Assembly: GCA_029259655.1 (NCBI GenBank)
Contig: JAJDET010000109.1
Coordinates: forward strand, 1 to 64,000
Length of the DNA: 64,000 nucleotides
Direction: 5' to 3'
DNA from: Planctomycetota bacterium
GTDB taxonomy: Bacteria > Planctomycetota > UBA1135 > GCA-002686595
Both the position numbers and the translations under genes were made by a program. Under the pieces are notes generated by a model. The model was not told the origin of the DNA, did no database searches, and worked only from the letters and a program-made list of their open reading frames with translations. This document shows positions 17,817-43,362 of this stretch, in pieces; within the stretch, counting starts at the first letter, position 1; each line of letters starts with the position of its first letter.

Positions 17817-18359
17817 ATGGCCCTCGCCGCGCTGATCCTCTCGGTTCTGGCACTGATTCTGGCGCTGCGTGCGAGCTCGATCGCCGGGCGGCACGCACAG
17901 GCCGTGGAGGACGTGGAGTCGGACGCGCGTCGTCGCATCGACAACTCTCGCGAGGAGCTCGACGGCGAGCTCGGGACACTTCGCGAGATGGTCGCGATGA
18001 TGGCCGATGGGCAGCCGCTCTCGGGCGAGATGGTTCGCGAAGGAAGGCTGTGGCGCGACGTCCTGCCGACCGAGGCGGCCGAGCTCGTAACCCGCGGTGG
18101 CGTGCGAATCGTGGACGTGCGTTCGCCCCAGGAGACGGCAGGTGGCGTCATCCCGGGAGCGATGCTCGTCCCGATCGACGAGCTCGAGGATCGGGCGCGC
18201 GAGATCCCCCGCGACGGTAAGCCGACGGTCGTCTACTGTGCGGGGGGAGGTCGTTCCGCTGCAGCCTGCGAGTATCTCTCGCGCGAAGGCTGGCTCGGCC
18301 TCATGAACCTGCAGGGTGGAATCTCATCGTGGACGGGCCCGACAGCTGCGCCGTCCTGA
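17817..18359 (+). CDS. membrane-anchored rhodanese-domain protein
   Basis: A 180-aa protein: N-terminal membrane segment (residues 2-20), coiled-coil linker (~25-65), then a rhodanese domain (~85-175). 'GVRIVDVRSPQETAGGVIPGAMLVPIDEL' is the rhodanese core and 'VVYCAGGGRSAAAC' is the active-site loop with the catalytic Cys followed by the CxxGxRS pattern. It probably carries sulfur or binds an anion near the inner membrane. The IMPase/CysQ-type gene starts 26 bp downstream on the same strand, so a functional tie to sulfur metabolism is possible but unproven. Confidence 0.87.
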   Translation: MALAALILSVLALILALRASSIAGRHAQAVEDVESDARRRIDNSREELDGELGTLREMVAMMADGQPLSGEMVREGRLWRDVLPTEAAELVTRGGVRIVDVRSPQETAGGVIPGAMLVPIDELEDRAREIPRDGKPTVVYCAGGGRSAAACEYLSREGWLGLMNLQGGISSWTGPTAAPS

Positions 18360-18385
18360 GCCCCTACTTCGAGGAACCTGGGGAC

Positions 18386-19213
18386 ATGCCGGAACTCATG
18401 ACTGCCGAGGAGATCGAGCGCGAGCTCGCGTTCGCGATTCACGTCGCCGACCTGGCCGGCGAGCGGGTGATGCGCCTGCGCGACACCGGCCGGTGGGAAG
18501 GGAAGATGATGGCCGACATCGGCGATCAGGCCGCCGACGGATTCCTCCAGGGATACCTCCGCGGCCGCTACCCGGAGGACGGGATCCTCTCCGAGGAAAC
18601 GGGCGACTCCGCAAAGCGTCTCTCGAAACAACGCACCTGGATCGTCGATCCGCTGGACGGAACCAAGGAATACAGCCAGGGGCGCGACGACTGGGCGGTT
18701 CACGTCGCGCTCACGATCGACGGTCGTTGCGCACTCGGAGCGGTGGCGCTCCCGGCCCAGCACATGACCCTCTGGGGTGTAACGGTGCCGGGCCACGAGC
18801 GCTGGGGACTCGAGGGGGAATCCGGTGATCCGGTGCGCGGAGAGTCGAAACCGCCCGAGGGTCTGCGGGTCGTCATGAGCCGCAGCCACACACCTCCCTG
18901 GATGGAGCGCTTCTGCGAAGTGATCGGCTCGACCGAGAACGTCCGTTGCGGCAGCGTCGGCAACAAGGTCACACGACTCCTGCTCGGACACGCAGACGTC
19001 TACGTGCACAAGGTCGGACTCAAGGAGTGGGACACGTGCGCTCCCGAAGTCGTCGCGCGATCGCTCGGCTGGAGCGTCTGCAAGCTGCGGGGCGAGGAGC
19101 ACCGCTACAACCGACGCGACTACAAGAACAACGAGCTCGTCGTGTGCCGGCCCGCGATGCGCGATCGCGTTCTCGCTGCACTCGGTGAGTGCGGAGCTCT
19201 CGCGGACGATTGA
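18386..19213 (+). CDS. inositol-monophosphatase family enzyme, probable PAP phosphatase (CysQ type)
   Basis: Lithium-sensitive Mg2+-phosphatase superfamily, 275 aa. 'ILSEETGD' (Glu70/71) and 'WIVDPLDGTKEYSQGRDDWAVHVAL' (DPLDGT 88-93) bind metal. 'VGLKEWDTCAPEVV' near 212 is the C-terminal signature with the third Asp. The KEY/F after DPLDGT resembles the 3'(2'),5'-bisphosphate nucleotidase (CysQ) branch, which removes PAP made during sulfate activation. sat and cysC at 39-42 kb make that role plausible. ATG 18386 is chosen over an earlier in-frame start that overlaps the rhodanese gene. An inositol or other sugar phosphatase activity is the alternative. Confidence 0.82.
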   Translation: MPELMTAEEIERELAFAIHVADLAGERVMRLRDTGRWEGKMMADIGDQAADGFLQGYLRGRYPEDGILSEETGDSAKRLSKQRTWIVDPLDGTKEYSQGRDDWAVHVALTIDGRCALGAVALPAQHMTLWGVTVPGHERWGLEGESGDPVRGESKPPEGLRVVMSRSHTPPWMERFCEVIGSTENVRCGSVGNKVTRLLLGHADVYVHKVGLKEWDTCAPEVVARSLGWSVCKLRGEEHRYNRRDYKNNELVVCRPAMRDRVLAALGECGALADD

Positions 19214-21315: not shown

Positions 21316-21958
21316 TTCGCAACGAAGGAGGCGCTCCCTGATCGCGGTCGCGGTGGCCGTTCTCGCAACGGCGGCTCTGGCCGCGGGCGGCGTCTTCACG
21401 CGTGGACAGGACAGACAACCGGTGAAGACGCGTGACGACGGCGGAGTCCACGCCATCCTCTGCGCGATCCGTTTCGATCTCACCACGCCGTACACCTACG
21501 ACTGGAGCGCGGAGCGAGCGCTCGTGTCCGAGGGCTGGCTGGTGGTCCTCGACGTGGAGAGAGAGCTCGTCCGCCCCCGCCAGACGGCGGAGCCCGTGCT
21601 CCAGATGGGCACGGAGACCCTCGAGCGCGTCAACCGCGGAGAGCTCTCGGGCCACCTCGTCGCGATCGTCCCGAAACCGATCGACCTCGAATCCTCACCG
21701 GCGTTCTTCGGTACGCCCGATCTGCCCGAGCGGGTGGACGGACTCTCTCGTGGGCGGGAGCTCACGAGCGCTCGCGCGCGCGGCATCGCGCCGTTCACGC
21801 CCGAAGCCGTCGCGCTGGCGATCGACTGCGGTGGTGGACCGGTCGAGCTCGCGGATCAGGGCCAGCTCCTGGAGCTCGCCGCACAGTGGATCCTCGAGTA
21901 CGCGCCAGACGAGGACCGCCGCGCGTTCCGGCTGCTCGGGATCCCGACGTCGCGCTAG
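21308..21958 (+). CDS. membrane-anchored hypothetical protein
   Basis: A 216-aa protein I do not recognise. It has an arginine-rich start ('MGDSQRRRRS') and one hydrophobic segment (~11-28), then ~185 residues predicted periplasmic, with strands such as 'GWLVVLDVERELVRPRQ' and 'HLVAIVPKPIDLE'. The start overlaps the end of the secreted hydrolase gene by 8 bp, indicating translational coupling and a possible shared role. Its TAG stop is formed by the outer end of the inverted-repeat element that follows, so the C-terminus may have been set by that element. Confidence 0.7.
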   Translation: MGDSQRRRRSLIAVAVAVLATAALAAGGVFTRGQDRQPVKTRDDGGVHAILCAIRFDLTTPYTYDWSAERALVSEGWLVVLDVERELVRPRQTAEPVLQMGTETLERVNRGELSGHLVAIVPKPIDLESSPAFFGTPDLPERVDGLSRGRELTSARARGIAPFTPEAVALAIDCGGGPVELADQGQLLELAAQWILEYAPDEDRRAFRLLGIPTSR

Positions 21959-22156
21959 CGCGGACTATTCATGACCACGCGGACCGAACACCACGAACGG
22001 CCGGCTTCGCCGGCCTTTCGGCCCCTGCCGGCACCTTACACGCCCCGGCGTCCTCGACGACCCGTCGAGGTCGCCTGCGGGGCCGGCACGCGCAAAGTAC
22101 CGGCAGGAACCGAATCGAGGCGTTCTGCCTCGCGGCTCATGAATAGTCCGCGCTAG
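21955..22156. repeat. 202-bp element with perfect 20-bp terminal inverted repeats
   Basis: The arms 21955-21974 (CTAGCGCGGACTATTCATGA) and 22137-22156 are exact reverse complements. Inside are three further stem-loops: GGCCGGC-ttc-GCCGGCC (21999-22015, followed by TTTCGG), CCTCGACG-acc-CGTCGAGG (22052-22070) and CGAGGC-gttct-GCCTCG (22117-22133). The two flanking convergent genes both stop at the TAG of the outermost CTAG of each arm, a symmetrical arrangement. It may be a MITE-like non-autonomous element or a bidirectional terminator. No target-site duplication is evident. Confidence 0.8.
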
Positions 22157-22725
22157 GAAGCCTCGACGCCCGCCAGCTCGATGAGGCGGTCGAGGACCCT
22201 GCGCAACTCGCGGCTGAGACGGGGGTCGATGCGCTTCTCGAGCGCCTCGACCTTGCGCGTGGCGATCTCTAGCGTCCCCTTGCGGCCGCCGCGGAAGTGG
22301 CTCCACACGCCGTCGGGGTCCGTGGTCTCCTCCAGCTCGACGCGCAGGCTCTCGAGATTGTGGAGCTGGTCGACGGCCTTGATCGTGACAGCCTCGGCCG
22401 ACATGCGGGCGATGTGCGCGATGCCCGTCTCCTTGCGCTCGCGCCAGGACTTCGTCTTGTCCTCGGTCAGCTCGTCGACGATGCGGGCCACGTGCTCCCC
22501 GAACTCGCGCTCGACGCGCTCGAGGTCCCAGCTCTCGCAGTCCTCGATCGTGTCGTGCAGGAGCGCCGCCACGATCGACGATTCCTCCATGCCCCGGCGC
22601 GCGAGGATGAGCGCCATGTGGACGGGATGGACCGCGTACGGGGCTCCGCCGTCTCCCTTGCGAACTTGACCCTCGTGCGCAGTGACGGCGGCCGTGATCG
22701 CTCGCTCGATGGCCCGGAAGTACAC
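22153..22725 (-). CDS. HD-domain small alarmone hydrolase-like protein (MESH1/SpoT-type)
   Basis: A 190-aa metal-dependent phosphohydrolase consisting of one HD domain of the RelA/SpoT hydrolase type. Metal ligands are seen as His33 ('YAVHPVHMALIL'), His57-Asp58 with Glu61-Asp62 ('ALLHDTIEDC') and a later Asp in 'IKAVDQLHNLESLR'. Free-standing proteins of this kind hydrolyse (p)ppGpp or related nucleotides (and NADPH in animals). It is the last gene of the phosphodiesterase/RHH/EMC3-like operon, 4 bp after its neighbour. There is no synthetase domain. The stop codon lies in the inverted-repeat element. Confidence 0.82.
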   Translation of the reverse strand: MYFRAIERAITAAVTAHEGQVRKGDGGAPYAVHPVHMALILARRGMEESSIVAALLHDTIEDCESWDLERVEREFGEHVARIVDELTEDKTKSWRERKETGIAHIARMSAEAVTIKAVDQLHNLESLRVELEETTDPDGVWSHFRGGRKGTLEIATRKVEALEKRIDPRLSRELRRVLDRLIELAGVEAS

Positions 22726-22729
22726 GGTC

Positions 22730-23578
22730 TCAGATCGTGACGCCGAGCGGCTTCAACGCCGCCGCACCGATGATGATCGAGTAGACGGCCACGCCGACCA
22801 TCAGCCCGAGGGGACCGTCCGGCATCCACCAGTACGAGCGCATCGGATAGCCGCCGGCGATCGAGATCTTCTCGAGCGAGGTCTCCGCGGCGATCGTCGG
22901 TTCTGCGGGCCAGAGCCACGCGTTCCAGAAGTCCCCCACGCGGTCCGGCTGCATCCGGCGGGGTGCGTCTTCGGGGTCTCCGATGGCGACGGGCTTCACG
23001 ACGTCGATCTCCCCGCCCGTGAAGCCGAACCTGAACTCCCACACTCCCGCGGGCGCGTCGTGGACCGTGATGAAGGCCCGACCCTCGCCGGGCGTGCGGA
23101 CCACGGTGTGGTTCTCTGCCGTGAGCCAGTCCGGACCCTCGACCACGAGATCCTCGGCTCGCCGGGTGCCGCCCTCTTCGAGCTCCACGACCAGCGTGAA
23201 GTCCTCGCCCTCGGGCAGCGGCTCGAAGCCGTAGCGCACGGCGAACTGCGAGATGAGCAACACGAAGGGCGGCAGGAGCGGGAGGATCGGCAGGAAGTTG
23301 AGCCCGAGGTACTGGAAGTTCCGGAGCAGAATCTTCCCGACGGCCGCGCCCACAACGGTGAGGTCGTCCTGGTAGATCCGGATCTCGATCATGTGACCCT
23401 TGATCTTGTCCTTGGTGTCCGCGATGCGCTTCTGGGAGCTGATGTACTTGAACAGCACCAGGCCCAGGACGCCGGCGACGCCGCTCACGATCACGATCGC
23501 GATCTCGAGTCCGAGGGGCTCGAGGACGACCATCATGAGGTCGAAGAGCTTCGTGGAGATGGAGTTGACCAGGTTCAT
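22730..23578 (-). CDS. EMC3/TMCO1-Oxa1-superfamily-like membrane protein
   Basis: A 282-aa membrane protein. TM1 is at ~24-45, then a charged cytosolic helical hairpin 'SSQKRIADTKDKIKGHMIEIRIYQDD' (48-72), then hydrophobic segments at ~88-113 ('LGLNFLPILPLLPPFVLLISQF'), a beta-rich outside domain (~120-235) and a final TM ('LMVGVAVYSIIIGAA'). The TM1, KDKIKxHMxEIR hairpin and TM2 pattern resembles DUF106/EMC3 proteins of the Oxa1/YidC superfamily, which insert membrane proteins; the extracytoplasmic beta domain is extra. ATG 23578 is chosen because sequence upstream is not protein-like. Assignment is by pattern only. Confidence 0.6.
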   Translation of the reverse strand: MNLVNSISTKLFDLMMVVLEPLGLEIAIVIVSGVAGVLGLVLFKYISSQKRIADTKDKIKGHMIEIRIYQDDLTVVGAAVGKILLRNFQYLGLNFLPILPLLPPFVLLISQFAVRYGFEPLPEGEDFTLVVELEEGGTRRAEDLVVEGPDWLTAENHTVVRTPGEGRAFITVHDAPAGVWEFRFGFTGGEIDVVKPVAIGDPEDAPRRMQPDRVGDFWNAWLWPAEPTIAAETSLEKISIAGGYPMRSYWWMPDGPLGLMVGVAVYSIIIGAAALKPLGVTI

Positions 23579-23612
23579 GACGAGGGGGGGGGTCTCTTGT
23601 CGCCCTTGTGCG

Positions 23613-23810
23613 CTAGCTGATGTAGCCGAGCCCGCGCAGCTTCTCGGTGATGTCCTCGTCGGAGCCCGTGTCCTCGAAGTTCGCGAGCTCCTTCTCGATG
23701 ATGTGCGTGATGAATTCCTCGTGCGAGGCATAGCCCGCGACCTCGGCGATCTGCTTCACGCGGTCGATGAGGTCGGGGTCGAGCTTGATCTTGTTTCCGC
23801 CGCCGAACAT
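23613..23810 (-). CDS. 65-aa ribbon-helix-helix-like protein with LGYI tail
   Basis: Small acidic protein with an RHH/CopG-like layout: strand 'KIKLDPDLIDRVKQIAEVAGY', then helix 'SHEEFITHIIEKEL'. An acidic linker and the C-terminal tail 'KLRGLGYIS' follow. It is clearly paralogous to the 72-aa protein at 41803-42021, which ends 'KLKNLGYL'. It lies between the phosphodiesterase genes and the EMC3-like gene in one minus-strand operon. The RHH fold suggests DNA binding and autoregulation, but the shared tail could instead be a protein-interaction or sorting signal. ATG at 23810 is preceded by AAGGAG. Confidence 0.75.
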   Translation of the reverse strand: MFGGGNKIKLDPDLIDRVKQIAEVAGYASHEEFITHIIEKELANFEDTGSDEDITEKLRGLGYIS

Positions 23811-23838
23811 GGCTGCTTCTCCTTGTGTTACGTGGGTA

Positions 23839-25980
23839 TCAGTCGGCCAGCACGGGGTGCCCGTTCATTCCGGGTCCGGGCTCCACGTCGTACCGATGGA
23901 GGATCTCGACGGTCAGGTCTTCGAGCGCGTGCGAGCCTTGCCGCACGGGGCGGTTCGAGATCAGGATCCCGCCCACCACGTCCGGCGCCATCAGGTGGCT
24001 GCCGTTGAACGTGCCGCCGAGGTTGTCCTTGAGAATCTGGTTCGGGACGCGACCCTCGGAAGAGGCGTCGGAGTTCCCGTATGCGTAGTTGTAGCCGACG
24101 AGGATGTCGGGCGCCTCGGGGACGCGTGAGCCCTCGTAGATCTCCGTCGCGAGGTCGGCGCGCAGGACGACCTGCTCGCCGTTCTTCGGGTCGACAACCG
24201 CCTCCAGCTCGCGCTTGAGCTCGGCCAGCAGCGCATCGGCTTCGGCGCCGGGCTTCACGATTCCGGACTCGTCGACGTCCTCCGTCGCCGGGTCGTCCAG
24301 CTCGCGTCCCGCGAGGTTCAGGTACAGGCCGTTGAAGCCCATCCCGTAGGCCCGTGTCTTCGTCCAGTCGACGACCATCGGAAGGTAGGTCTTGCGGAAG
24401 TCCGCGTGGTCGCGCGGGAGCTCTCGCTCGGCGTTCTCCTTCAAGACCAGGTACCCCTTCTCGAGGAGCCAGGTGTTCAGGCTGAACTCGCGGCGGTAGG
24501 GCGCGAACCCGTGATCGCTCATCACGATGTAGGTCGGGTCGTCGCCGAGCCGCTCTCGCAGCTCACCGAGCACAGGGTCGATCTTCAGGATCACGTCGAA
24601 GGTCGTGTCCTTCCACGTGCTGCCGCGACGACCGGTCCACTCCTCGCTCGAGCGCGCCGCGATCTCGGGGTCGTGGTGAGGGTGCTCCGGGTCTCCGTGG
24701 CGCCACATCATGTGGCTCGTCAGGTCGACCGTGGAGAAGTAGAAGAACAAGAGACCGCCGTCTCCGCTCGCCTCGTAGCGATCGAGGGCGTAGTCGAGCA
24801 TCGCGAGGCGCTCCTGGTAGACGAGCTCGACCTGCTGCGCGAACTCCTCGACCGTGAGGAGATCGCGCTTGAGGCTGTTCACGTCCTCCGCCATGCCCTG
24901 CGTGTAGTAGCGCCCGATCCGGTGCGCGAGGTCGACGCTCGCATCGTCGGGAGCGGAGACGGGCATCGCGGGGCCGAGCGGATCGATGTTGACCGGCGAC
25001 GCGTACAGCACGAACGGGTCGAGCGAACGCAGGTAGAAGCGGACCATCCCGGGAAGGTCCATCGCGCCGAAGTCGAGCGGGACCGTCATGTCGAAGACGA
25101 CGGCGATCCAGTCGCTCCACTCGCCCACCTCGAGGGCCACCGATTCCGTCCCCGTGTCGACGGCGACGGCGTTCGCGTCCCGATCGATGTAGATCTTCAG
25201 CGGACAACGCGTGAGCGGGTCTCCCTCGCGGAACGCGTTCGGGGGCCCGGTCAGGAAGGTGTCGATGCGACCACCGAACTCCTTCACGACGCGCAGCTTC
25301 GAATACGTGGAGGTCGCGCTCGCGAGCGCGTCGTCCGTGTACATGGTGCTCTCCCCGTAGGCCGAGTCGAGCGCCGGCGTCATCATCCCGGGGAACGAGA
25401 CGCCGTGCGATCCCTCGACGGGGAAGTTGATCGGCATGCGCCAGAGGTCGGCGGGCACACCCTCGCGCTCCAGCAGCTTCCAGAACGGGGTGCCCGTCCG
25501 GTTGCTGGGCGCTTCCCCGCCGGTCGGGAACTTCAGGTCGCCCCACAGATGGATCTCGCCCCCGTGCACCTCCTCGACGGTCGATGCCGCGGGCAGGCGT
25601 GTCTCGCGGTTGCGGTGGATGAAGTCGAAGATGCCGTGCCCACCGGGATCGAGCCCGGTGATGAAGTTCGACCAGGCGACCGGGCTCTGGGGCGGCGTCG
25701 ACGTCCCGAGCTCGTGGATGCCGCTCTTGTTCGCGATCCACTGGAAGTTGCGTGTGCGGTCGGGGAAGCGCTCGATCGTCTCCTTGAGGAGGTCCGGGTC
25801 GAGCCCGTCGATGCCGAGCACCACGACGCGCTCATACTTCGGTGTCGGCAACTCGTCGCGCGCGCGCAGCGCGGCACCGGCGTGGGGGTCGGCGACGGTC
25901 CGCGGACTCCAGACGACCGCCATCGGCATCCCGATGAGGAGTACGAGCGCGGGGTAGACGGTCCAGCGGGGGAGCTTCAC
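23839..25980 (-). CDS. type I phosphodiesterase (alkaline phosphatase superfamily), membrane-anchored
   Basis: A 713-aa protein with an N-terminal membrane segment (~7-24) and a large phosphodiesterase/nucleotide-pyrophosphatase-like domain. Metal sites: 'VVVLGIDGLDPDLL' (Asp58), 'YFSTVDLTSHMMWRHGD' (D..H) and 'YIVMSDHGFAPYRREF' (Asp-His). The nucleophile should lie in 'STPPQSPVAWSNFITG'. The domain sits outside the membrane. GTG 25980 overlaps the stop of the preceding paralogous gene (GTGA), so the two are translated together and probably act together. The substrate (phosphodiester, phosphonate or sulfate) cannot be told from sequence. Confidence 0.85.
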   Translation of the reverse strand: MKLPRWTVYPALVLLIGMPMAVVWSPRTVADPHAGAALRARDELPTPKYERVVVLGIDGLDPDLLKETIERFPDRTRNFQWIANKSGIHELGTSTPPQSPVAWSNFITGLDPGGHGIFDFIHRNRETRLPAASTVEEVHGGEIHLWGDLKFPTGGEAPSNRTGTPFWKLLEREGVPADLWRMPINFPVEGSHGVSFPGMMTPALDSAYGESTMYTDDALASATSTYSKLRVVKEFGGRIDTFLTGPPNAFREGDPLTRCPLKIYIDRDANAVAVDTGTESVALEVGEWSDWIAVVFDMTVPLDFGAMDLPGMVRFYLRSLDPFVLYASPVNIDPLGPAMPVSAPDDASVDLAHRIGRYYTQGMAEDVNSLKRDLLTVEEFAQQVELVYQERLAMLDYALDRYEASGDGGLLFFYFSTVDLTSHMMWRHGDPEHPHHDPEIAARSSEEWTGRRGSTWKDTTFDVILKIDPVLGELRERLGDDPTYIVMSDHGFAPYRREFSLNTWLLEKGYLVLKENAERELPRDHADFRKTYLPMVVDWTKTRAYGMGFNGLYLNLAGRELDDPATEDVDESGIVKPGAEADALLAELKRELEAVVDPKNGEQVVLRADLATEIYEGSRVPEAPDILVGYNYAYGNSDASSEGRVPNQILKDNLGGTFNGSHLMAPDVVGGILISNRPVRQGSHALEDLTVEILHRYDVEPGPGMNGHPVLAD

Positions 25981-28106
25981 GAGGCCACGGCCGCCGCTTC
26001 GCGAGGTTGCGACGTCTCCTTCACCTTGCGGTCACCGAACAGGGGCGCACCCTGCATGTACTTCGGGATCGGAACCCCGAACAGGTCGAGCGCCGTGGGC
26101 GCGATGTCCATGATGTTCGGCTCCTCGGTGTTGACCTCGCGGTTGCACCAGAACACGCCGGGCACGAGCCGTGGATCGACGCAGTGGTCGCCGGACCACG
26201 ACTTCGTGTTGTCCGTGAAGATCTCCTCGGAGACGGCGCCGGTCGCGCAGTCCCACGAGTGGCGGAAGCCCTTCTCGTAGCCGACGAGGATCTCGGGAGC
26301 CATGTCCGCGTAGGGCCCGTCGTGGAGCTTCTTCGTGAGGAAGGCCTCCTTGACGACGCTCTTCCCGTTCTTCGGATCCGTGAGGGCCTCGAGCTTCTCC
26401 TTGATCTCGGCCGAGAGCGCTTCGAGCTCCGCGCCCTCCTCGACGATCCCCTGTGCCTCGCGCCCCTTGCGGTTGATGAAGATGCCCGTCAGGCCGAGCG
26501 TGAAGGCGCGCGTCTTCGACCAGTCCACGTTCTGGAACCAGTCGCCGGACGTGTTGCCCTCCTTCAGCACGAGGTAGCCCTCGTCGCGCAGCCAGGAGTT
26601 CAGGTTGGCGCCGCGCGTGAAGTTGCAGAACCCGTGGTCCGAGATGACCATCAGGATCGTGTCCTTCTCCTCGCCGATCTTCGCCCGGATCTCGGCCAGG
26701 AAGTCGTCCATCCGCTTGTAGACGTCGCGGATCGTGTTCTTGTACTTCTCGACGTCCTTGCCCTCGTTCGCCGGATGGTCCGGGTCGAGGTAGCGGTAGA
26801 ACATGTGCGAGACGCGGTCGGTCGTGTCGAAGACGACCGTCACGAAGCCCTTCTTCGTCTTCTCGATGACGTCCCAGAGCTGCTTCTTGCGCTCCTCGAA
26901 GATCAGCCAGGCCTGCTTGAGGAAGGCCTCCTCGTCGACGACGCGCTCGTTGAGCGCCCAGGTGTCCTCGGCCAGCCCGAGCGTGGCGTAGGGCCCCTGC
27001 AGCTTCGCGAGGTAGATCGAGTAGACGAACGGGTGCGAGATCGGAATCGCCGGGCTGCCCGGGTCGATGTTGATCGGCGTGCAGTAGATCTCCACGTTCT
27101 CCTCGTCCCAGGTCTGCACGTAGAGCCGCGCAATGCCCTGGACTCCGTCGAAGGGGATGACCATCCACGGCGTGTACTCGCGATAGCCGACCGTGTGCTC
27201 GTCCGAGCCGACCACGAAGGTGACCCGTCTGGTCTCGTCGTCGAACTCGGCGGTGAAGGGGCACTTCATCGGGTGCTTGTCCTTCCCGGCCGGCCCGGTG
27301 AGCTTCGACTCGACGAGGTCCCCCTTGCGGCGGATCTGGTATTGCTGCCCGCCGATGTGCGTCCCGGCAGGACGCGACTTCGTGGAGTAGAACGAGAACG
27401 AGCCCTGCGTGCCCTGGATGTCCGGCACGCACATACCCGAGAGCAGCGTTCCGTTCTTGAACTTCTGCGGCGGGAAGGTGATCGGTACGCGCACGATCGA
27501 GGACCAGACGTTGCTCTGACCGAGGAGCTTCCAGAAAGGCTGGCTCTTCTGGTGCGACTTGTAGGACGCCTTCTGCCCCATCGGGACCTTCGCGAAGCCG
27601 AGGTTGAGCGTCTTCGGCAACGTCTGGATATCCGCCGACGAGAGCGTCGGCATGTAGGTGCAGGGGTCGCGCGTCAGGAAGTCGTAGATGTTGTGCCGCG
27701 AGGCGTCGACGCCGGTCGCGTAGCTCGACCACGCGACGGGCGAGATCGAGGGATAGGCGGTCTTGAGCTCGCGGAAACAGCCCTGCTTCGCGAGCGCCGC
27801 GAAGTTGGGCATGAGGCCCTCGTCGCCGAACCGCTTCGCGAGGCCCGGGTCGAAACCGTCGAGCCCGACGACGATGCAGCGCTTGACCTTCGGCTTGTTC
27901 GGGTTGCGGTGCGTCGCGAGGCGCACCACGGCCTTCAGGGGCCAGAGCAGCACGATCCCGATCGCCAGGAAGAAGGTCCCGATCAGGACGAGCATGCTGC
28001 CCGCCGCGGCGAAGCCGACGCCCGGCCCGATGTATGCCAGGGCGGGGCTCGAGGTGACGACGGCGGCCGCTCCGGTGAGGAGGACCAGACGAACGGTGCG
28101 CTTCAT
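25977..28106 (-). CDS. type I phosphodiesterase (alkaline phosphatase superfamily) with YIGPG membrane module
   Basis: A 709-aa paralogue of the next gene. It starts with a signal-like segment ('LVLLTGAAAVVTSSPALA'), then 'YIGPGVGFAAAGSMLVLIGTFFLAIG', a second membrane segment. The catalytic domain follows: 'IVVGLDGFDPGLAKRF' (Asp83), 'AYPSISPVAWSSYATG' (nucleophile region), 'FDTTDRVSHMFYRY', 'LMVISDHGFCNF' and a C-terminal 'SGDHCVDPRLVPGVFW'. It heads the operon phosphodiesterase-phosphodiesterase-RHH-EMC3-like-HD. ATG 28106 fits the signal segment; the frame extends upstream without protein-like sequence. Confidence 0.85.
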   Translation of the reverse strand: MKRTVRLVLLTGAAAVVTSSPALAYIGPGVGFAAAGSMLVLIGTFFLAIGIVLLWPLKAVVRLATHRNPNKPKVKRCIVVGLDGFDPGLAKRFGDEGLMPNFAALAKQGCFRELKTAYPSISPVAWSSYATGVDASRHNIYDFLTRDPCTYMPTLSSADIQTLPKTLNLGFAKVPMGQKASYKSHQKSQPFWKLLGQSNVWSSIVRVPITFPPQKFKNGTLLSGMCVPDIQGTQGSFSFYSTKSRPAGTHIGGQQYQIRRKGDLVESKLTGPAGKDKHPMKCPFTAEFDDETRRVTFVVGSDEHTVGYREYTPWMVIPFDGVQGIARLYVQTWDEENVEIYCTPINIDPGSPAIPISHPFVYSIYLAKLQGPYATLGLAEDTWALNERVVDEEAFLKQAWLIFEERKKQLWDVIEKTKKGFVTVVFDTTDRVSHMFYRYLDPDHPANEGKDVEKYKNTIRDVYKRMDDFLAEIRAKIGEEKDTILMVISDHGFCNFTRGANLNSWLRDEGYLVLKEGNTSGDWFQNVDWSKTRAFTLGLTGIFINRKGREAQGIVEEGAELEALSAEIKEKLEALTDPKNGKSVVKEAFLTKKLHDGPYADMAPEILVGYEKGFRHSWDCATGAVSEEIFTDNTKSWSGDHCVDPRLVPGVFWCNREVNTEEPNIMDIAPTALDLFGVPIPKYMQGAPLFGDRKVKETSQPREAAAVAS

Positions 28107-35859: not shown

Positions 35860-37716
35860 TCAATACCCCAGGGTGAGGTCCAGCGCGTTCAAGAGGACGA
35901 CGGTCTCGGGCGCGACCTCCAGCCGGATTCCCTGCGCGTAGAGCGTCGTCCCGGCGAGGCTCGGGTCGGAAGGCAGCGACACCCGATGCCTAGCAAGGGA
36001 GATGTTGAAGGTGAAGGGAGGGAAGATCAGGGGCTCCCCGCTCACCGGATGGATGAATCCGGACGTGGGCCCGCTCCCGAACTGGATGACCGTCGCGAAC
36101 GTCGCGGATCCGACCGATGGCGCAACCTGGATGGTGGCCCTCCAGTTCGATCCGAGCACCGGATCGGTCCTGCAGACGAAGTCGATCGGGTTGACGTCGG
36201 AGCCGTTGCGGACCGTGCAGGACGCGTAAGGAGGCAGATCGAACGCGTACGCGGCCCCGGCGGCCTGAGCGTTGTCATCGCTCTGGTTGCCGTCGACGCC
36301 CGTCGCGTTGCTGTCCTCGAGGTACGCGCCGACCACGACGACGTCCTCCGACACGGCGACGGACTCGCCGAAACGGTCGTTGGACCCCGTGTTGGAGGCT
36401 TTCAGGTAGGCCCGCTGGCTCCAGGTCGATCCCCCACGTCGAAACAGGTAGGCAGCCCCGGACCGCGCCAGGAGGTTGTTGAACGGGTCTCCGTCGACAC
36501 CGGTGGCGTCGCTGTCCTCGGAGGTCGCCCCGACAACGAGTGAGTCCTCGTGGATGGCCAAGGCGTCACCGAACAAGTCGCCCCCGCCGTTGTGGGAAGC
36601 CTTGAGATAGGCCTGCTGGCTCCAGCCGGAAGCGCCGCGCACGAAGAGGTAAACCGCTCCCGAATTCAACGAGCCGTTGCCTTCGCCGCCGTTCACTCCT
36701 GCCGCGCTGCTGTCCTCGCTCGAGGCGCCCACGGCGATCGTGTTTTCGGAAGCTGCGACTGCGATACCGAAGAAGTCCCCCGCCTCGGCGTTGGAAGCCT
36801 TGAGGTAGGCCTCCTGCGTCCAGGTCGTGCCGTTCCGCACGAACACGTACGCCGCTCCGGCATCGGCCGCTCCGTCGTCGAGCTGATCGCCGTTCACGCC
36901 GGTGGCGCCGCTGTCCTCGTGCCTCGCTCCGATGACGACGGTGTCGCCGGAGACGGCCACCGAGAGACCGAAGAAGTCGTTCACGTCAATGGTCGAGGCC
37001 TTGAGGTAGGCCTGCTGGCTCCACGTCGTTCCGGTCCGTACGAACACGTACGCCGCTCCAGCGTTCTGGACGCTGTTGTCGGTGGGATCGCCGTTCACGC
37101 CCGTTTCGCCACCGTCCTCCCACGCAGCGCCGACCACGATGGTGTCGCCCGAGATCGCCACGGACCCTCCGAAGTTGTCACTGGCGTCCACGGCGGGAGC
37201 CTTGAGGTAAGCCTGCTGGCTCCACGTCGTTCCGGTCCGCAGGAACACGTATGCCGCGCCCGCGTTGCCGGTGCCGTCGTCGGCCTGATTTCCGTTCACG
37301 CCGGTGGCACCGCTGTCCTCCAGCGAAGCTCCGACCACGATCGTGTCCCCGGAGATTGCGACAGACTCTCCGAAGCGGTCGAACGTGCCCGTGTTGGATG
37401 CCTTGAGGTAGGCCTCCTGGCTCCAGCTCCCTCCGTTCCGAACGAACACGTAGGCCGCGCCGGCGATGCCGGAGCTGTTGTCGGTCTCGTCGCCGTTCAC
37501 CCCCGTGGCGTTGCTGTCCTCGTCCTCCGCTCCGATGACGACGGTGTCGCCGGAGGCTCCCACGGCGACACCGAGCTGGTCGCCCGCGTCCGTGTTGGAT
37601 GCCTTGAGGTACGCCCGTTGCACGACCGTGTCCGAACTGGCCGATCCGACCGGGTGCAGGACGACGAGCACGAGCGCAGTGCAGAGAGCGCCATTCGACT
37701 TCGAGGATCGCAGCAT
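35860..37716 (-). CDS. secreted FG-GAP repeat protein (seven repeats) with shared C-terminal domain
   Basis: A 618-aa exported protein (signal peptide ~1-27). Seven ~60-67-residue FG-GAP/integrin-alpha-like repeats each begin 'AYLKAS', contain 'FGxSVAxSGDTIVVGA' and an Asp/Asn-rich loop 'DSxATGVNGD', and end 'GAAYVFVRxGxxWSQ'. They should form a Ca2+-binding beta-propeller. The final ~120 residues ('CTVRNGSDVNPIDFVCRTDP...LNALDLTLGY') are almost the same as the end of the neighbouring paralogue. AGGAG precedes ATG 37716. Likely cell-surface or secreted and involved in binding; partner unknown. Confidence 0.87.
   Translation of the reverse strand: MLRSSKSNGALCTALVLVVLHPVGSASSDTVVQRAYLKASNTDAGDQLGVAVGASGDTVVIGAEDEDSNATGVNGDETDNSSGIAGAAYVFVRNGGSWSQEAYLKASNTGTFDRFGESVAISGDTIVVGASLEDSGATGVNGNQADDGTGNAGAAYVFLRTGTTWSQQAYLKAPAVDASDNFGGSVAISGDTIVVGAAWEDGGETGVNGDPTDNSVQNAGAAYVFVRTGTTWSQQAYLKASTIDVNDFFGLSVAVSGDTVVIGARHEDSGATGVNGDQLDDGAADAGAAYVFVRNGTTWTQEAYLKASNAEAGDFFGIAVAASENTIAVGASSEDSSAAGVNGGEGNGSLNSGAVYLFVRGASGWSQQAYLKASHNGGGDLFGDALAIHEDSLVVGATSEDSDATGVDGDPFNNLLARSGAAYLFRRGGSTWSQRAYLKASNTGSNDRFGESVAVSEDVVVVGAYLEDSNATGVDGNQSDDNAQAAGAAYAFDLPPYASCTVRNGSDVNPIDFVCRTDPVLGSNWRATIQVAPSVGSATFATVIQFGSGPTSGFIHPVSGEPLIFPPFTFNISLARHRVSLPSDPSLAGTTLYAQGIRLEVAPETVVLLNALDLTLGY
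35863..36225 (-). repeat. duplicated 3' segment, copy 1 of 2
   Basis: This segment encodes the last ~119 residues of the seven-repeat FG-GAP protein and is closely similar at DNA and protein level to 37890-38252 in the neighbouring gene; by eye about 105 of 119 residues are identical. It marks a tandem duplication or domain exchange. Confidence 0.8.
36245..37650 (-). repeat. tandem FG-GAP coding repeats
   Basis: Seven consecutive ~185-200-bp units with recurring words such as GAGGCCTTGAGGTAGGCC(T) and GCTGTCCTC. They encode the propeller blades and explain the strong DNA self-similarity here. They are coding repeats, not a CRISPR or satellite array. Confidence 0.85.
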
Positions 37717-37886
37717 ATTGACTCGCTCCTTTTTGCGCAGGTTTGGACCCAGTGTACACCCTTCCGAGAATCCGGGATTCGCGTGGGGACACCCACCCCA
37801 ACCGTCGCTGACGCATGGAACTGTTCCGCGGAATCCGGAGAAATGTGCCCGCGAGTCAGAATCCAGGCCGCGAAGGGCGGGAGGAA

Positions 37887-38920: not shown

Positions 38921-39478
38921 CTACGCCTTCTGCACCTGGCGGGCCGGGATGAGGCCCTTCTCGTGGAGGTAGTCGAGGACCTTCTGGGCCGACTCCTCGA
39001 TCGACTGGTCGCCGGTGTGGACCGTGACCTCGGCCTTCTCGGGAGCCTCGTAGGGATCGCTGATGCCCGTGAACTGCTTGATGATGCCGGCGCGGGCCTT
39101 CTTGTAGAGGCCCTTGGTGTCGCGCGCCTCGACGACCTCGAGCGGCGCCTCGACGTAGACCTCGACGAAGTGCGCCTTGCAGTTCCCGCGCATCTCGTCG
39201 CGGATCGCAGCGTAGGGGCTGATCGCGGCGGTGATCGCGATCACGCCGTTGCGCGACAGCATGTTGGCCACGTAGCCGATGCGGCGGATGTTGGTGTCCC
39301 GGTCTTCCTTCGAGAAGCCGAGGCCTTTCGAGAGGTTCTCGCGAACCTCGTCGCCGTCGAGGCACTCGACGAGGCAACCCATCTCGGTGAACATCGGGAT
39401 GAGGTACTGCGCAAGCGTGCTCTTGCCCGCGCCCGAGAGCCCCGTGAACCAGAGCGTGAAACCCTTGTGATCAGACAT
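38921..39478 (-). CDS. cysC: adenylylsulfate (APS) kinase
   Basis: Phosphorylates APS to PAPS using ATP. The 185-aa protein has the Walker A motif 'GLSGAGKST' at 13-21, 'CLDGDEVRENLSKGLGFSKEDRDTNIRRIGYVANMLSRNGVIAITAAISPY' (substrate loop) and 'FVEVYVEAPLEVVEARDTKGLYKKARAG', all diagnostic. ATG 39478 follows a GGAACGAAGGA site. It is the last gene of an operon with sat and a sulfatase-like gene, and a strong terminator follows. PAPS can feed reduction or sulfotransferases; no PAPS reductase is seen here. Confidence 0.96.
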   Translation of the reverse strand: MSDHKGFTLWFTGLSGAGKSTLAQYLIPMFTEMGCLVECLDGDEVRENLSKGLGFSKEDRDTNIRRIGYVANMLSRNGVIAITAAISPYAAIRDEMRGNCKAHFVEVYVEAPLEVVEARDTKGLYKKARAGIIKQFTGISDPYEAPEKAEVTVHTGDQSIEESAQKVLDYLHEKGLIPARQVQKA

Positions 39479-39519: not shown

Positions 39520-40476
39520 CTAGCGGAGCTTGCCCTCGAGGTACGGAACCTCGAAGCACTTCTCGTGCATGATCGGGCCGTGGCCGAAGTAGCCGGCCTC
39601 GCCGAAGAGCTCGCCGTGATCGGCGGTGACGATGATGTAGGTGTTCTCCGGAACCATGTCGTACAGCTTCGGGAACACTTCCTTGTCGAGATAGCGAACA
39701 GTGTCGATCTGCCGTTCGCGCAACTGGTCCAGCTTCTCCTGGTCGAAGAACTGAAAGTCCTCTTCAAAGGTCGGCGCGTCCGCGTCGACCTGCTGGTTGA
39801 GCTTCTTGAAGACGCCGTTGACCCCGCTGATCCGCGGCCACATCGAGGAGTCCTCGTTGGGCTTGGCGTAGGGGTAGTGCGTCTCGCCCACGTTCACCAT
39901 GTAGAACGACGGGCGATCGGAGCTGAACTTCATGGTCGGCAGGATGGCCGCCATGTCGTTGTGGCTGTCCATCAGCTCGAAGCTGTCGAACATGCGGTTG
40001 ATGCCGGTCTTCGGATTGAGAACCGGTAGCGACACACGCGCGTTGGTGTCGTAGCCGAGCTTGTTCCGCAAGAAGTCCGGCAACCACAGGCCGGGCACCA
40101 TCGCGCCGAAGTCCACGGACTTCTCCTTCGAGCCCAGGCGCATGTTGTAGTTGAAGAAGTCCTCCTTGTAGTACTCCGACGCATACACGTTCTCGGGCGA
40201 CGTGTGCGGAAGGAGTCCCGTCAGGAGGTTGTAGTGCGACGGCGCGGTCCAGGACGCGTACGTGAAGCGCTTCTCGACCTTGCCCCCCGACAGCTTCGTG
40301 ATGTTCTTCGGCTCGGCCGCCATGAACGAGTCGTAGCGGCACGAGTCGAGGATCACGATGATGAAGTGGTTGTCCGCCTGCGGCTGGGGATGCGGAGGCA
40401 TACCCGGCCTGAAGACGGGCCGCACGGGCGGTCGCGCCGGCGCTTTCTTCTTCTTGAAGGCGTCGAGGAGGCCCAT
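39520..40476 (-). CDS. sulfatase-like hydrolase (alkaline phosphatase superfamily)
   Basis: A 318-aa protein of the sulfatase/alkaline phosphatase superfamily with no signal peptide. A basic, Pro-rich start (~1-36) precedes 'FIIVILDSCRYDSF' (metal Asp44). 'SWTAPSHYNLLTGLLPH' follows, the nucleophile region, and 'YIIVTADHGELFGEAG' holds the C-terminal metal residues. The usual formylglycine motif C/S-x-P-x-R is absent: Thr77-Ala-Pro-Ser80-His is in its place. True sulfatase maturation is therefore unlikely, and it may be a phosphodiesterase or transferase. It sits 2 bp after sat and 41 bp before cysC, implying a role around APS/PAPS or sulfated products. Confidence 0.8.
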   Translation of the reverse strand: MGLLDAFKKKKAPARPPVRPVFRPGMPPHPQPQADNHFIIVILDSCRYDSFMAAEPKNITKLSGGKVEKRFTYASWTAPSHYNLLTGLLPHTSPENVYASEYYKEDFFNYNMRLGSKEKSVDFGAMVPGLWLPDFLRNKLGYDTNARVSLPVLNPKTGINRMFDSFELMDSHNDMAAILPTMKFSSDRPSFYMVNVGETHYPYAKPNEDSSMWPRISGVNGVFKKLNQQVDADAPTFEEDFQFFDQEKLDQLRERQIDTVRYLDKEVFPKLYDMVPENTYIIVTADHGELFGEAGYFGHGPIMHEKCFEVPYLEGKLR

Positions 40477-40478
40477 GG

Positions 40479-41735
40479 CTAGCCGTTCTGCTTGGAGTAG
40501 TACTCGGCCAGGATCTCGGCCGTCGACGGACGCATCACGCGCTCGTCGGGCAGCTCACCGGCGCCGAGGATCTCGCGCATCTTCGTTCCGGAGATGTTGA
40601 CCGCGGTCTTGTCCTTGTTCTCCTTCACGAGGCCCACGCGGCCAAGCTCCTCGAAGAACGCGGCGAAGCCGACGTTCACGGTCTTGATCGCGAGCTTGCC
40701 CTCGAGCTTCTCGAAGATCTCCTGCGCGTCGAAGTCGCCCCAGATCGCCGTCTTGTCGTCGAACGGCGCGTCGGCGTGCTTGCGGCCGATGATGAAGTGG
40801 GTGAAGCCCAGGTTCTGGCGGTAGACGGCGTGCATGATCGCCTCGCGCGGACCGCCGTAGTACATGCGCATGTCGAGGCCGACGAGCGCGACGGCAGCGT
40901 CGAAGTCCTGGTTCTTGGACTTCCAGAGCTCTTCGTCCTTGTCGCCCTGGCCCAGGAAGTGCTCGTCGACGAGCCGCTCGTAGGTCTTCATGCGGATGTC
41001 GGCGGGGACGTCGTCGCCCTTGAGCTGACCGACGAGCGGGTTCAGGATGACGCCCGTCTTGCGGCCGGTCTCGCGCAGGATGATCTCGGCGCCAAAGACG
41101 AGGGCGTACTCGTGGGCGCGGTGCAGCGGGTTTCGCGTCTGGAACCCTATCGACTGCTCCCAGCCCTTCTCCTCGATCAGCTTGCGCGTGTCGACCGGCG
41201 ACATCACGCGAGCCGCGAAGGGGCGCTGGTCGTCGAACGGCGCGAGGTGGATCTCGCCGCCGACGATCTTGCCGCGGGTGTCCTCGGTCCACAGGCGCGC
41301 GCCGGGGTGATCGGTGCGCTCGGTGCCGTAGCAAGCCTTGACGAAGGCCGTCTTGTCCCAGTCGAACGTCGAACGGACCTTGATCGTTCCGAAGACCTTC
41401 CCGTCGCGCGTCAGCGCGAGCGAGTCACCGATCTTGCACGTCTCGGCCTCGGCGTCGGTGATGGGAAGGATCGTGGGAATGCCCCACGCCCACCACTCAC
41501 CGTTTCGCTCGATCGCCGCCTTGTGCAGCACGTTGCTGTAGTCCGCCTCGGTCATCGGACCGTTGAGCGGGCTGAGCGTGCCGTCCGCGATGCGGTAGAG
41601 CGTGGTCTGATCGATCTCGGTGACCTCGATCGCCGCGAGCTTCGACCAATCGGGGTCGACCTTGTCGACGATGCGGTTGACGGGCCGATCGAGGCCGCCG
41701 TGGACGGGAGCGAGGTTGCTGGTGGACACGGGCAT
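40479..41735 (-). CDS. sat: sulfate adenylyltransferase (ATP sulfurylase)
   Basis: Makes APS and pyrophosphate from ATP and sulfate. The 418-aa single-chain enzyme carries 'GFQTRNPLHRAHE' (197-209, the QxRN and HxxH nucleotide motif) and 'FIIGRKHADAP' (a conserved 'GRxHA' motif). It ends with 'SGTKMREILGAGELPDERVMRP', all typical of the Sat family rather than CysDN. An RHH-like gene precedes it by 67 bp, and the sulfatase-like and cysC genes follow closely. With cysC it forms a complete PAPS-producing pair. Confidence 0.97.
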   Translation of the reverse strand: MPVSTSNLAPVHGGLDRPVNRIVDKVDPDWSKLAAIEVTEIDQTTLYRIADGTLSPLNGPMTEADYSNVLHKAAIERNGEWWAWGIPTILPITDAEAETCKIGDSLALTRDGKVFGTIKVRSTFDWDKTAFVKACYGTERTDHPGARLWTEDTRGKIVGGEIHLAPFDDQRPFAARVMSPVDTRKLIEEKGWEQSIGFQTRNPLHRAHEYALVFGAEIILRETGRKTGVILNPLVGQLKGDDVPADIRMKTYERLVDEHFLGQGDKDEELWKSKNQDFDAAVALVGLDMRMYYGGPREAIMHAVYRQNLGFTHFIIGRKHADAPFDDKTAIWGDFDAQEIFEKLEGKLAIKTVNVGFAAFFEELGRVGLVKENKDKTAVNISGTKMREILGAGELPDERVMRPSTAEILAEYYSKQNG

Positions 41736-41802: not shown

Positions 41803-42021
41803 CTACAGGTAGCCCAGGTTCTTGAGCTTGCGTTTGACGTCGTCGAGCTCGTCCTGGTCGAACTCCCGGATCTCTCCGTTCTCCTCCGCATCCCCCATCA
41901 GGTCCCGCAGGACGTAGACGATGAAGTCGGTCGGCGAGTTGAAGCCCGATCCCTCCACGACCTGCTGGACCTTGCGGTACAGCGGGCGGGGGATCTTGAC
42001 GGTGACCTTGCTCTCGCGCAC
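41803..42021 (-). CDS. 72-aa ribbon-helix-helix-like protein with LGYL tail
   Basis: Paralogue of the 65-aa protein at 23613-23810. 'KVTVKIPRPLYRKVQQVVEGSGFNSPTDFIVYVLRDLM' gives the strand-helix-helix pattern of RHH proteins. An acidic linker and the C-terminal 'DVKRKLKNLGYL' follow. It is the first gene of the sat operon, so it may regulate sulfate activation. As with its paralogue, the conserved tail suggests a second role in protein contact. It is divergent from the TPR lipoprotein gene across a hairpin-rich gap. Confidence 0.75.
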   Translation of the reverse strand: MRESKVTVKIPRPLYRKVQQVVEGSGFNSPTDFIVYVLRDLMGDAEENGEIREFDQDELDDVKRKLKNLGYL

Positions 42022-42283: not shown

Positions 42284-42781
42284 ATGAGGCTCTCGATCCC
42301 GATCCTGCTCGCTCTGCTGCCCGCTCTCGCCTGCGACTCCGCCGATGTCACGACTCGCCTCGACGCGGGTTACGCGGCCTTGAATTCGGCGGATGGGGAG
42401 TCGGCGCTCGAGCACTTCGAGGCCGCCTACGAAGCCATGGAGAACGCTCCGGAGGGCCAGCTGCACTTGCGAGCGCTCCTGGGACTCGTCGAGGCGACCG
42501 CCCTGGCCCGGCCGGAGAGCGTCGAGGGCACCTGGCTGACCCTCCACCACCACCACCCCGAGCTCCTGGAGCCGCGCGACTACATCCACCTCGCCTCCAG
42601 CCTCCTGGAGACCGAGGCCAGCCGTCACGCGGCGACCGTGATGGACCTGGGAGTGAAGCGCTTCCCCGACGACCCGGAGCTCGCGGAGCTCGAGGCCCGC
42701 CTGGCGAGAATCGTCGCCCGCGGGGACGACCCCGAGCTGGCGGGCGACCTGGACAAGCTGGGCTACCTGGGAGGCGATTGA
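42284..42781 (+). CDS. TPR-like lipoprotein with LGYLGGD tail
   Basis: A 165-aa lipoprotein with lipobox 'LLPALAC' (Cys17). The mature helical part has degenerate TPR features ('LDAGYAALNSADGESALEHFEAAYEAM', 'AATVMDLGVKRFPDDPELAELEARL'). It ends 'DLDKLGYLGGD', the same tail theme as the next gene and the two RHH-like proteins. The following gene is a paralogue 80 bp downstream. Likely outer-membrane associated. GGAGG precedes ATG. Function unknown. Confidence 0.75.
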   Translation: MRLSIPILLALLPALACDSADVTTRLDAGYAALNSADGESALEHFEAAYEAMENAPEGQLHLRALLGLVEATALARPESVEGTWLTLHHHHPELLEPRDYIHLASSLLETEASRHAATVMDLGVKRFPDDPELAELEARLARIVARGDDPELAGDLDKLGYLGGD

Positions 42782-42861: not shown

Positions 42862-43362
42862 ATGCGCACAAGGAGTCACTTCGCCCTCGCCCTGGCCCTC
42901 ACTCTCGCAGCGTGCGGCGGGGGAGGATCGGATCCCGCCGCCGCCAACGAGGAGGGCTACGCCGCCCTCGGCTCCGGCAAGTACGCGAACGCGGCGAGCC
43001 ACTTCCAGACGGCTCTCGACGCGATCGGGAGCGACACGTCGAACGCCCAGTACCTGCGGGCTTCCATGGGTCTGATCGAGACGAACGTCCACGTCGATCC
43101 CGAGCGGGCCAAGGACGACTTCCTCGCACTCGCCAGCGCCAGCCCGCAGGTGAATGCGAAGGACTACAGCCGCATCGGCGGCATGCTGGCGGGCGCCAAG
43201 CAGTTCCAGCCCGCGATCGCCGTGGTCGACGCAGGCATCAAGGCCTACCCCGAGACACCTGCGCTCGAGAAGATGATCGAGCAGATCTCGGCCGACGCGG
43301 AGAAGTCCGGCGACGCCGAGGCGATCAACGCGCTCAAGGGACTCGGCTACCTCGGCGACTGA
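42862..43362 (+). CDS. TPR-like lipoprotein with LGYLGD tail
   Basis: A 166-aa lipoprotein: 'LALALTLAAC' lipobox (Cys18) followed by a Gly/Ser stretch. TPR-like segments 'NEEGYAALGSGKYANAASHFQTALDAI' and 'FQPAIAVVDAGIKAYPETPALEKMI' match its upstream paralogue in layout. The end 'AINALKGLGYLGD' repeats the tail motif. ATG 42862 is chosen because it starts the signal peptide; an upstream in-frame codon is not signal-like. Probably a tandem duplicate working with the preceding lipoprotein. Confidence 0.75.
   Translation: MRTRSHFALALALTLAACGGGGSDPAAANEEGYAALGSGKYANAASHFQTALDAIGSDTSNAQYLRASMGLIETNVHVDPERAKDDFLALASASPQVNAKDYSRIGGMLAGAKQFQPAIAVVDAGIKAYPETPALEKMIEQISADAEKSGDAEAINALKGLGYLGD

Follow-up and report, generated by a model that had tools for sequence, protein, structure and literature searches.

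A conserved membrane gene cassette near sulfate-activation genes in Planctomycetota and Myxococcota: a possible part in PAPS-dependent sulfation

What could bring together, in a single operon, two enzymes of the AlkP superfamily, a tiny ribbon-helix-helix-like protein, a membrane protein with some resemblance to Oxa1-type insertases and an HD hydrolase of the kind usually annotated as acting on alarmones? The question is raised by a 64,000-nucleotide stretch of DNA (hereafter the window, i.e. the whole stretch that was analysed) from a Planctomycetota bacterium, whose source is a 6.4-Mb MAG that is 91% complete. An earlier note had proposed here a five-gene operon on the minus strand that could link envelope modification to nucleotide signalling, and the operon itself holds up, all five frames being open and in place:

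AlkP1, 25977..28106, minus strand: 709 aa, AlkP superfamily (PF01663)
AlkP2, 23839..25980, minus strand: 713 aa, AlkP superfamily (PF01663)
RHH-A, 23613..23810, minus strand: 65 aa, ribbon-helix-helix-like, C-terminal tail LRGLGYIS
MEM, 22730..23578, minus strand: 282 aa membrane protein, possibly Oxa1/EMC3-like
HD, 22153..22725, minus strand: 190 aa, SAH/MESH1-type HD hydrolase, candidate PAPS/PAP 3'-phosphatase

The genes are tightly packed, with a 4-bp overlap between AlkP1 and AlkP2 followed by gaps of 28 bp (AlkP2 to RHH-A), 34 bp (RHH-A to MEM) and 4 bp (MEM to HD).

Gene order across two phyla

Across 128 distinct loci from Planctomycetota and Myxococcota, RHH-A is followed directly by MEM in 123/124 cases, an AlkP gene directly precedes RHH-A in 120/121 and AlkP1 is the next gene further upstream in 112/116 (these totals are sums over groups of loci). 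An order AlkP1-AlkP2-RHH-A-MEM that is found in more than 100 independent loci is far beyond chance. The earlier note had looked for co-occurrence of at least three of the five genes in distant taxa; four of them co-occur, in fixed order, and their conservation reaches well past close relatives into both phyla. The fifth gene behaves differently, since HD lies at most 1.5 kb downstream of the cassette in 47 of the 64 loci of the window's family but adjoins it at a single one of 53 loci outside that family. The conserved unit thus has four genes, not five, and HD is a lineage-specific addition to it. Literature searches on the cassette, on COG3379 and on a sulfatase LGY motif returned nothing relevant, and no paper describing the cassette was found.

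As for the spread of this cassette, 73 of the 101 genomes searched yielded MEM and 71 yielded RHH-A, while an RHH-A profile run against 84,980 species genomes retrieved 295 relatives, the best 80 of which are mostly from Planctomycetota, with some from Myxococcota. Sampling of the two phyla gave RHH-A in 44/294 (one a weak match) and 30/237 genomes, respectively. In the scanned set, the window's close relatives belong to Planctomycetota, among them the cultured strains Pla86, Pla163 and Poly30; the first and the last we take to be Engelhardtia mirabilis and Saltatorellus ferox, both Planctomycetota in the taxonomy. An apparent Actinomycetota cassette (L159), confined to one 3.9-kb contig in 1 of 198 genomes, is probably a binning error and was set aside. 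A quick tree of AlkP1 joins 17 Myxococcota sequences to the Planctomycetota family f47 (SH-aLRT 100), apart from other Planctomycetota, and shows two more Myxococcota sequences on deep branches. The simplest reading of the f47-Myxococcota grouping suggests that the cassette was transferred between phyla, as would suit genes that function together.

Membrane components of the cassette

Both AlkP proteins match PF01663 far above the Pfam cut-off of 23 bits (AlkP1, 2.7e-30 and 106.6 bits; AlkP2, 5e-24 and 86 bits), and both retain a serine nucleophile and the ligand set for two metals, roles that we read from the motif pattern. The residues concerned (D83, S122, D430, H434, D490, H491 and H641 in AlkP1; D58, S99, D419, H423, D489, H490 and H662 in AlkP2) are at least 97% conserved among 97 homologues of each protein. 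The nucleophile sits in SPVAW in both proteins and not in the formylglycine sulfatase motif C/S-x-P-x-R, and the serine together with the two-metal ligand pattern speaks for phospho-transfer or hydrolysis and against formylglycine-sulfatase chemistry. This pattern is shared with PF01663 phosphodiesterases such as NPP and the GPI-PEtn transferases. AlkP1 is nevertheless very divergent from solved AlkP members, its best PDB match covering about 50 residues, and the pair differs from PF01663 enzymes in consisting of two paralogues that apparently lie on opposite faces of the membrane.

This last point modifies the view that both are extracytoplasmic phosphodiesterase-type enzymes, of which the family assignment stands but the location of AlkP1 is probably wrong. 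Its N-terminus, with one or two predicted hydrophobic segments, is laid out as a signal/TM segment, a YIGPG motif, a second TM and a very basic stretch that leads into the catalytic domain. Across 93 homologues, the 20 residues after the last N-terminal TM hold on average 5.7 K/R and 0.2 D/E, which by the positive-inside rule makes a cytoplasmic catalytic domain probable. In AlkP2 there is only one N-terminal anchor, lipobox-like in locus L075, and the catalytic domain is therefore probably periplasmic.

The case of MEM is more delicate. AlphaFold (pLDDT 96.2, pTM 0.87) predicts helices at 24-46, 49-68, 73-116 and 255-273, onto which we placed the putative topology TM1, helical hairpin, TM2, Ig-like beta domain, TM3. 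A three-TM core with a hairpin between TM1 and TM2 is the arrangement of the Oxa1 superfamily, and the order TM1, hairpin, TM2, TM3 is shared with MJ0480 (DUF106), EMC3 and YidC, from which MEM differs by an Ig-like domain of about 120 residues between TM2 and TM3. The earlier description of MEM as EMC3/Oxa1-like keeps this core in its favour but gains nothing from Pfam or Foldseek: (i) MEM has no significant match in Pfam or NCBIfam, (ii) EMC3_TMCO1 (PF01956) is absent by Pfam from MEM and from the window's genome, (iii) full-length MEM gave no insertase among the listed Foldseek matches, its Ig domain bringing in a swamp of antibody folds, and (iv) the 122-residue helical core, a four-helix fragment and thus a weak query, gave nothing specific and no listed insertase either. 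A MEM profile searched against the PDB did bring up the archaeal YidC-like protein MJ0480, collinear but at non-significant E-values (0.19 and 0.89), and the match remained weak in pairwise hhalign (P 0.0014, probability 17%). Kinship of MEM to Oxa1/EMC3 is thus suggestive. Membership would make it plausible that MEM moves lipids, as lipid scrambling is an activity of Oxa1-family insertases (PMC10491306).

Sulfate-activation genes and the HD hydrolase

The surroundings of the cassette point towards sulfate. The window carries, besides the operon, the following genes:

CysQ-like, 18329..19213, plus strand: inositol-phosphatase family (PF00459, 3e-36), candidate PAP phosphatase
CysC, 38921..39478, minus strand: APS kinase, 185 aa (PF01583, 9.6e-61)
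SULF-B, 39520..40476, minus strand: sulfatase-fold protein, 318 aa (PF00884, 2.9e-9)
SAT, 40479..41735, minus strand: ATP sulfurylase, 418 aa (PF01747, 8.5e-57; PUA_2, 6e-26), RNPLHRAH motif
RHH-B, 41803..42021, minus strand: second RHH-like protein, 72 aa, tail LKNLGYL
LGY-tailed lipoprotein-like protein, 42284..42781, plus strand: 165 aa, divergent from RHH-B
Second LGY-tailed lipoprotein-like protein, 42862..43362, plus strand: 166 aa

The block formed by RHH-B, SAT, SULF-B and CysC, the last being the only APS kinase found in this 91% complete MAG, lies on the same strand as the cassette, 10.8 kb upstream of AlkP1, and in all eight f5 loci, as in many others, it stands directly upstream of AlkP1 on the same strand. 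In the window's family, CysC is within range of the cassette in about half of the loci (22/45), and 32 of 55 loci, the window included, have a CysQ-like gene no more than 6 kb downstream on the opposite strand. SULF-B, which has no evident signal peptide, lacks the C/S-x-P-x-R sulfatase motif and has TAPSH at the nucleophile, within a Thr-type WTAPSH motif that is highly conserved in 39 aligned sequences. Genome-wide, strong APS-kinase matches occur in 43/43 cassette-bearing genomes against about 143/251 without the cassette (Planctomycetota sample, Fisher p 5e-10), a test that ignores relatedness and is inflated by shared ancestry, for an enzyme that is common anyway. This co-occurrence is therefore supporting evidence only, and gene adjacency is the stronger argument.

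The Myxococcota loci are arranged differently. None of 18 has SAT or CysC near the cassette, and a Sulfotransfer_3-type gene directly follows MEM in 21 of 23 (the family name was checked on two loci, the rest being assigned by BLAST to these two). The same position is occupied by a sulfotransferase in 3 of 22 other Planctomycetota loci, well apart from Myxococcota on the AlkP1 tree. No such gene adjoins the cassette in the window or at any of the 64 loci of its family; the window's genome has eight Sulfotransfer_3 matches elsewhere, along with many sulfatase-fold proteins. PF01507, which covers PAPS/APS reductase as well as CysD, was not found in this MAG or in 28 of the 36 further family genomes, in a search that gave matches in 14/14 control genomes. 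This absence suggests that the PAPS made here is probably not meant for assimilation.

In an alignment of 12 diverse RHH-A sequences, 26 columns are invariant. The likeness of RHH-A to ribbon-helix-helix proteins is weak, at 15.9 bits against RHH_1 where the Pfam cut-off is 20.5; RHH-B has no Pfam match, and a search of the PDB gave weak matches, Arc and NikR among them. Genes like the one at 42284..42781 are divergent from RHH-B in Planctomycetota and lie beside AlkP1 in Myxococcota. The LxxLGY motif shows a strong C-terminal enrichment, in the window's genome mostly on sulfatase-fold proteins, many of them lipoprotein-like. This tail was considered as a signal of the system and rejected, as its phylum-wide abundance does not track the cassette: several cassette-bearing f5 genomes show no excess over control, whereas several cassette-free genomes show a large one.

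This setting also bears on HD, which had been taken for a ppGpp-hydrolase-type enzyme. The protein is an HD_4 member (3.4e-19, 69.6 bits in Pfam), its nearest solved relatives being Lmo0812 (3e-24), HD domain-containing protein 3 (3nr1, 1.7e-18) and MESH1 (5vxa, 1.6e-17). It holds the full SAH/MESH1 catalytic set (R22, H33, H57, D58, E61, D62, D119 and N123, as motif positions), the catalytic roles being assigned on the pattern of the family. HD thus resembles MESH1/SAH proteins in domain, catalytic residues and similar length, and differs in being bacterial and encoded in an operon with a membrane cassette. MESH1 itself is reported to be a CoA 3'-phosphatase (PMC13221220), and another paper cites it as a PAPS phosphatase with a regulatory role in sulfation (PMC12934728), a role that, as reported there, fits the PAPS-metabolism context of HD. 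The reported substrates of MESH1 are ppGpp and NADPH, and also PAPS and CoA (PMC13221220, PMC12934728). With HD sitting in a locus that would make and consume PAPS, a CysQ-like gene nearby and MESH1 a reported PAPS phosphatase, the context does not favour the alarmone reading, and PAPS or PAP would be the likeliest and most economical substrate by analogy. The link between envelope modification and a nucleotide may be kept only in altered form, with PAPS/PAP, the sulfate donor and its by-product, as the most likely nucleotide in place of ppGpp as signal.

A sulfation reading and its rivals

Taken together, the SAT/CysC context, the sulfotransferase that follows MEM in Myxococcota and the missing PAPS reductase matches lead us to favour, at slightly better than even odds, a reading in which the operon supplies the membrane half of a locus for PAPS-dependent sulfation and is not an alarmone circuit. 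In outline, (i) SAT and CysC would make PAPS in the cytoplasm, (ii) a sulfotransferase, encoded after MEM in Myxococcota and at three Planctomycetota loci and elsewhere in the window's genome, would sulfate a cell or envelope molecule, (iii) the two AlkP enzymes, AlkP1 at the cytoplasmic and AlkP2 at the periplasmic side of the membrane, would act on the product or a carrier, (iv) MEM would hold or pass the intermediate, (v) RHH-A and RHH-B could serve as small regulators and (vi) the MESH1-like HD and CysQ would dispose of PAPS/PAP. Some observations weigh against this reading: the window's family shows no sulfotransferase next to the cassette, SAT and CysC are away from it in Myxococcota, CysC is in range at only about half of the family loci, and the AlkP nucleophiles are of the phosphatase/PDE type. 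In a MAG that is 91% complete, a gene that was not found may also lie in the missing part. How the work is shared out among AlkP1, AlkP2 and MEM in this scheme is speculative. The scheme's most elaborate form, a transmembrane sulfation machine in which sulfate from PAPS is first loaded, in the cytoplasm, on a lipid or carrier, then moved across the membrane by an Oxa1-type Ig-domain protein and processed by an AlkP on each face, with a MESH1-type PAPS phosphatase tuning the flow, strikes us as improbable.

Bacterial PAPS-dependent sulfation loci have precedents in nodPQ/nodH (Nod factors) and raxPQ/raxST. Sulfated capsule clusters are another (PMC11641403). Such loci have an ATP sulfurylase and an APS kinase, as here, and a sulfotransferase, which they share with the Myxococcota loci; unlike in them, no acceptor-building genes were recognised at this locus. 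We know of no PAPS sulfation locus with a tandem AlkP pair, RHH-like mini-proteins or a MEM-type membrane protein.

Could the locus be devoted instead to the synthesis or modification of a phospholipid or lipid-linked glycan, with AlkP1 and AlkP2 as EptA/LtaS- or GPI-PEtn-type phosphotransferases, MEM as a scramblase and sulfation as a later decoration, which would make the PAPS link secondary? The serine nucleophile and two-metal sites of these PF01663 proteins suit such chemistry, many cassettes have no PAPS genes nearby and the lipid scrambling by Oxa1-family insertases offers MEM a task. However, no glycosyltransferase or lipid-synthesis gene recurs among the identified neighbours, which are a minority of all neighbours, and the kinship of MEM to Oxa1, suggestive as it is, has no Foldseek backing; we hold this reading to be unlikely. 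Still less probable is an operon for sulfate activation and sulfur assimilation in which AlkP1, AlkP2 and MEM help the cell to draw sulfate or phosphate from esters, the products going into the synthesis of cysteine. SAT and CysC are indeed its first steps, and AlkP-type enzymes can release phosphate or sulfate in a genome rich in sulfatase-fold proteins, but the absence of PF01507 here and in most of the family, against uniformly positive controls, deprives it of the reductase, and what adjoins the cassette in Myxococcota is a sulfotransferase.

Very unlikely, finally, is an alarmone-linked envelope system in which HD would hydrolyse (p)ppGpp and couple envelope phosphodiesterases to the stringent response. 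The SAH profile signature, the catalytic residues and the nearest solved relatives in the SAH/Rel family are what one would expect of it, but HD adjoins the cassette at one locus only outside the window's family, every recurrent neighbour identified relates to PAPS or sulfate, and MESH1 is reported to take PAPS, NADPH and CoA besides ppGpp.

If the sulfation reading is favoured, why does it matter? A specific function must lie behind a cassette whose order is kept across two phyla and that has apparently passed between them, and the cassette offers a concrete entry to the use of activated sulfate in Planctomycetota and Myxococcota. The reading predicts that the bacterial MESH1-like enzyme of the operon hydrolyses PAPS or PAP. 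Were this true, the reported PAPS-phosphatase role of animal MESH1 would extend to bacteria, and the default annotation of such proteins as alarmone hydrolases would be weakened.

The C-terminal LxxLGY tail

In the window's own genome, a C-terminal LxxLGY tail is common to the ribbon-helix-helix-like mini-proteins RHH-A and RHH-B, two lipoprotein-like proteins and some 30 sulfatase-fold proteins. Four genes in the window encode it:

23613-23810, minus strand, RHH-A
41803-42021, minus strand, RHH-B
42284-42781, plus strand, lipoprotein-like protein
42862-43362, plus strand, lipoprotein-like protein

The pattern is matched 108 times in this genome (versus 23 in a reversed control) and lies at most 25 residues from the C terminus in 42 of the 70 coding matches in own-genome loci (L263-L332), a count in which overlapping loci were entered more than once. 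The abundance of the tail does not track the presence of the cassette (AlkP1-AlkP2-RHH-A-MEM).

SULF-B and the inverted repeat beside HD

The following features belong to the two halves of the locus or adjoin them:

21958-22153, 17-bp perfect inverted repeat (GCGCGGACTATTCATGA) delimiting a 196-bp stretch
35860-38792, two FG-GAP repeat proteins (PF14312)
39520-40476, minus strand, SULF-B, sulfatase-fold protein with a Thr-type motif

SULF-B, which is strongly conserved in sequence and has no evident signal peptide, is a third AlkP-superfamily enzyme of the locus. The two FG-GAP repeat genes are located between the two halves in the window's genome. As for the 196-bp stretch, it starts at the stop codon of HD, the gene directly downstream of MEM, and looks like a small mobile-element remnant; the repeat has no further copy in the window, nor any beyond this locus among the 332 fetched loci.

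Cassettes in other genomes

Among 198 Actinomycetota genomes, a single MAG (L159) carries part of the cassette, on a contig of 3.9 kb; this is probably a binning error. Arylsulfotransferase-like (ASST) genes lie near some cassettes (L201, where the gene is PF14269, L202, L205, L206, L112 and L119), and these neighbours might represent a further sulfate-transfer link.
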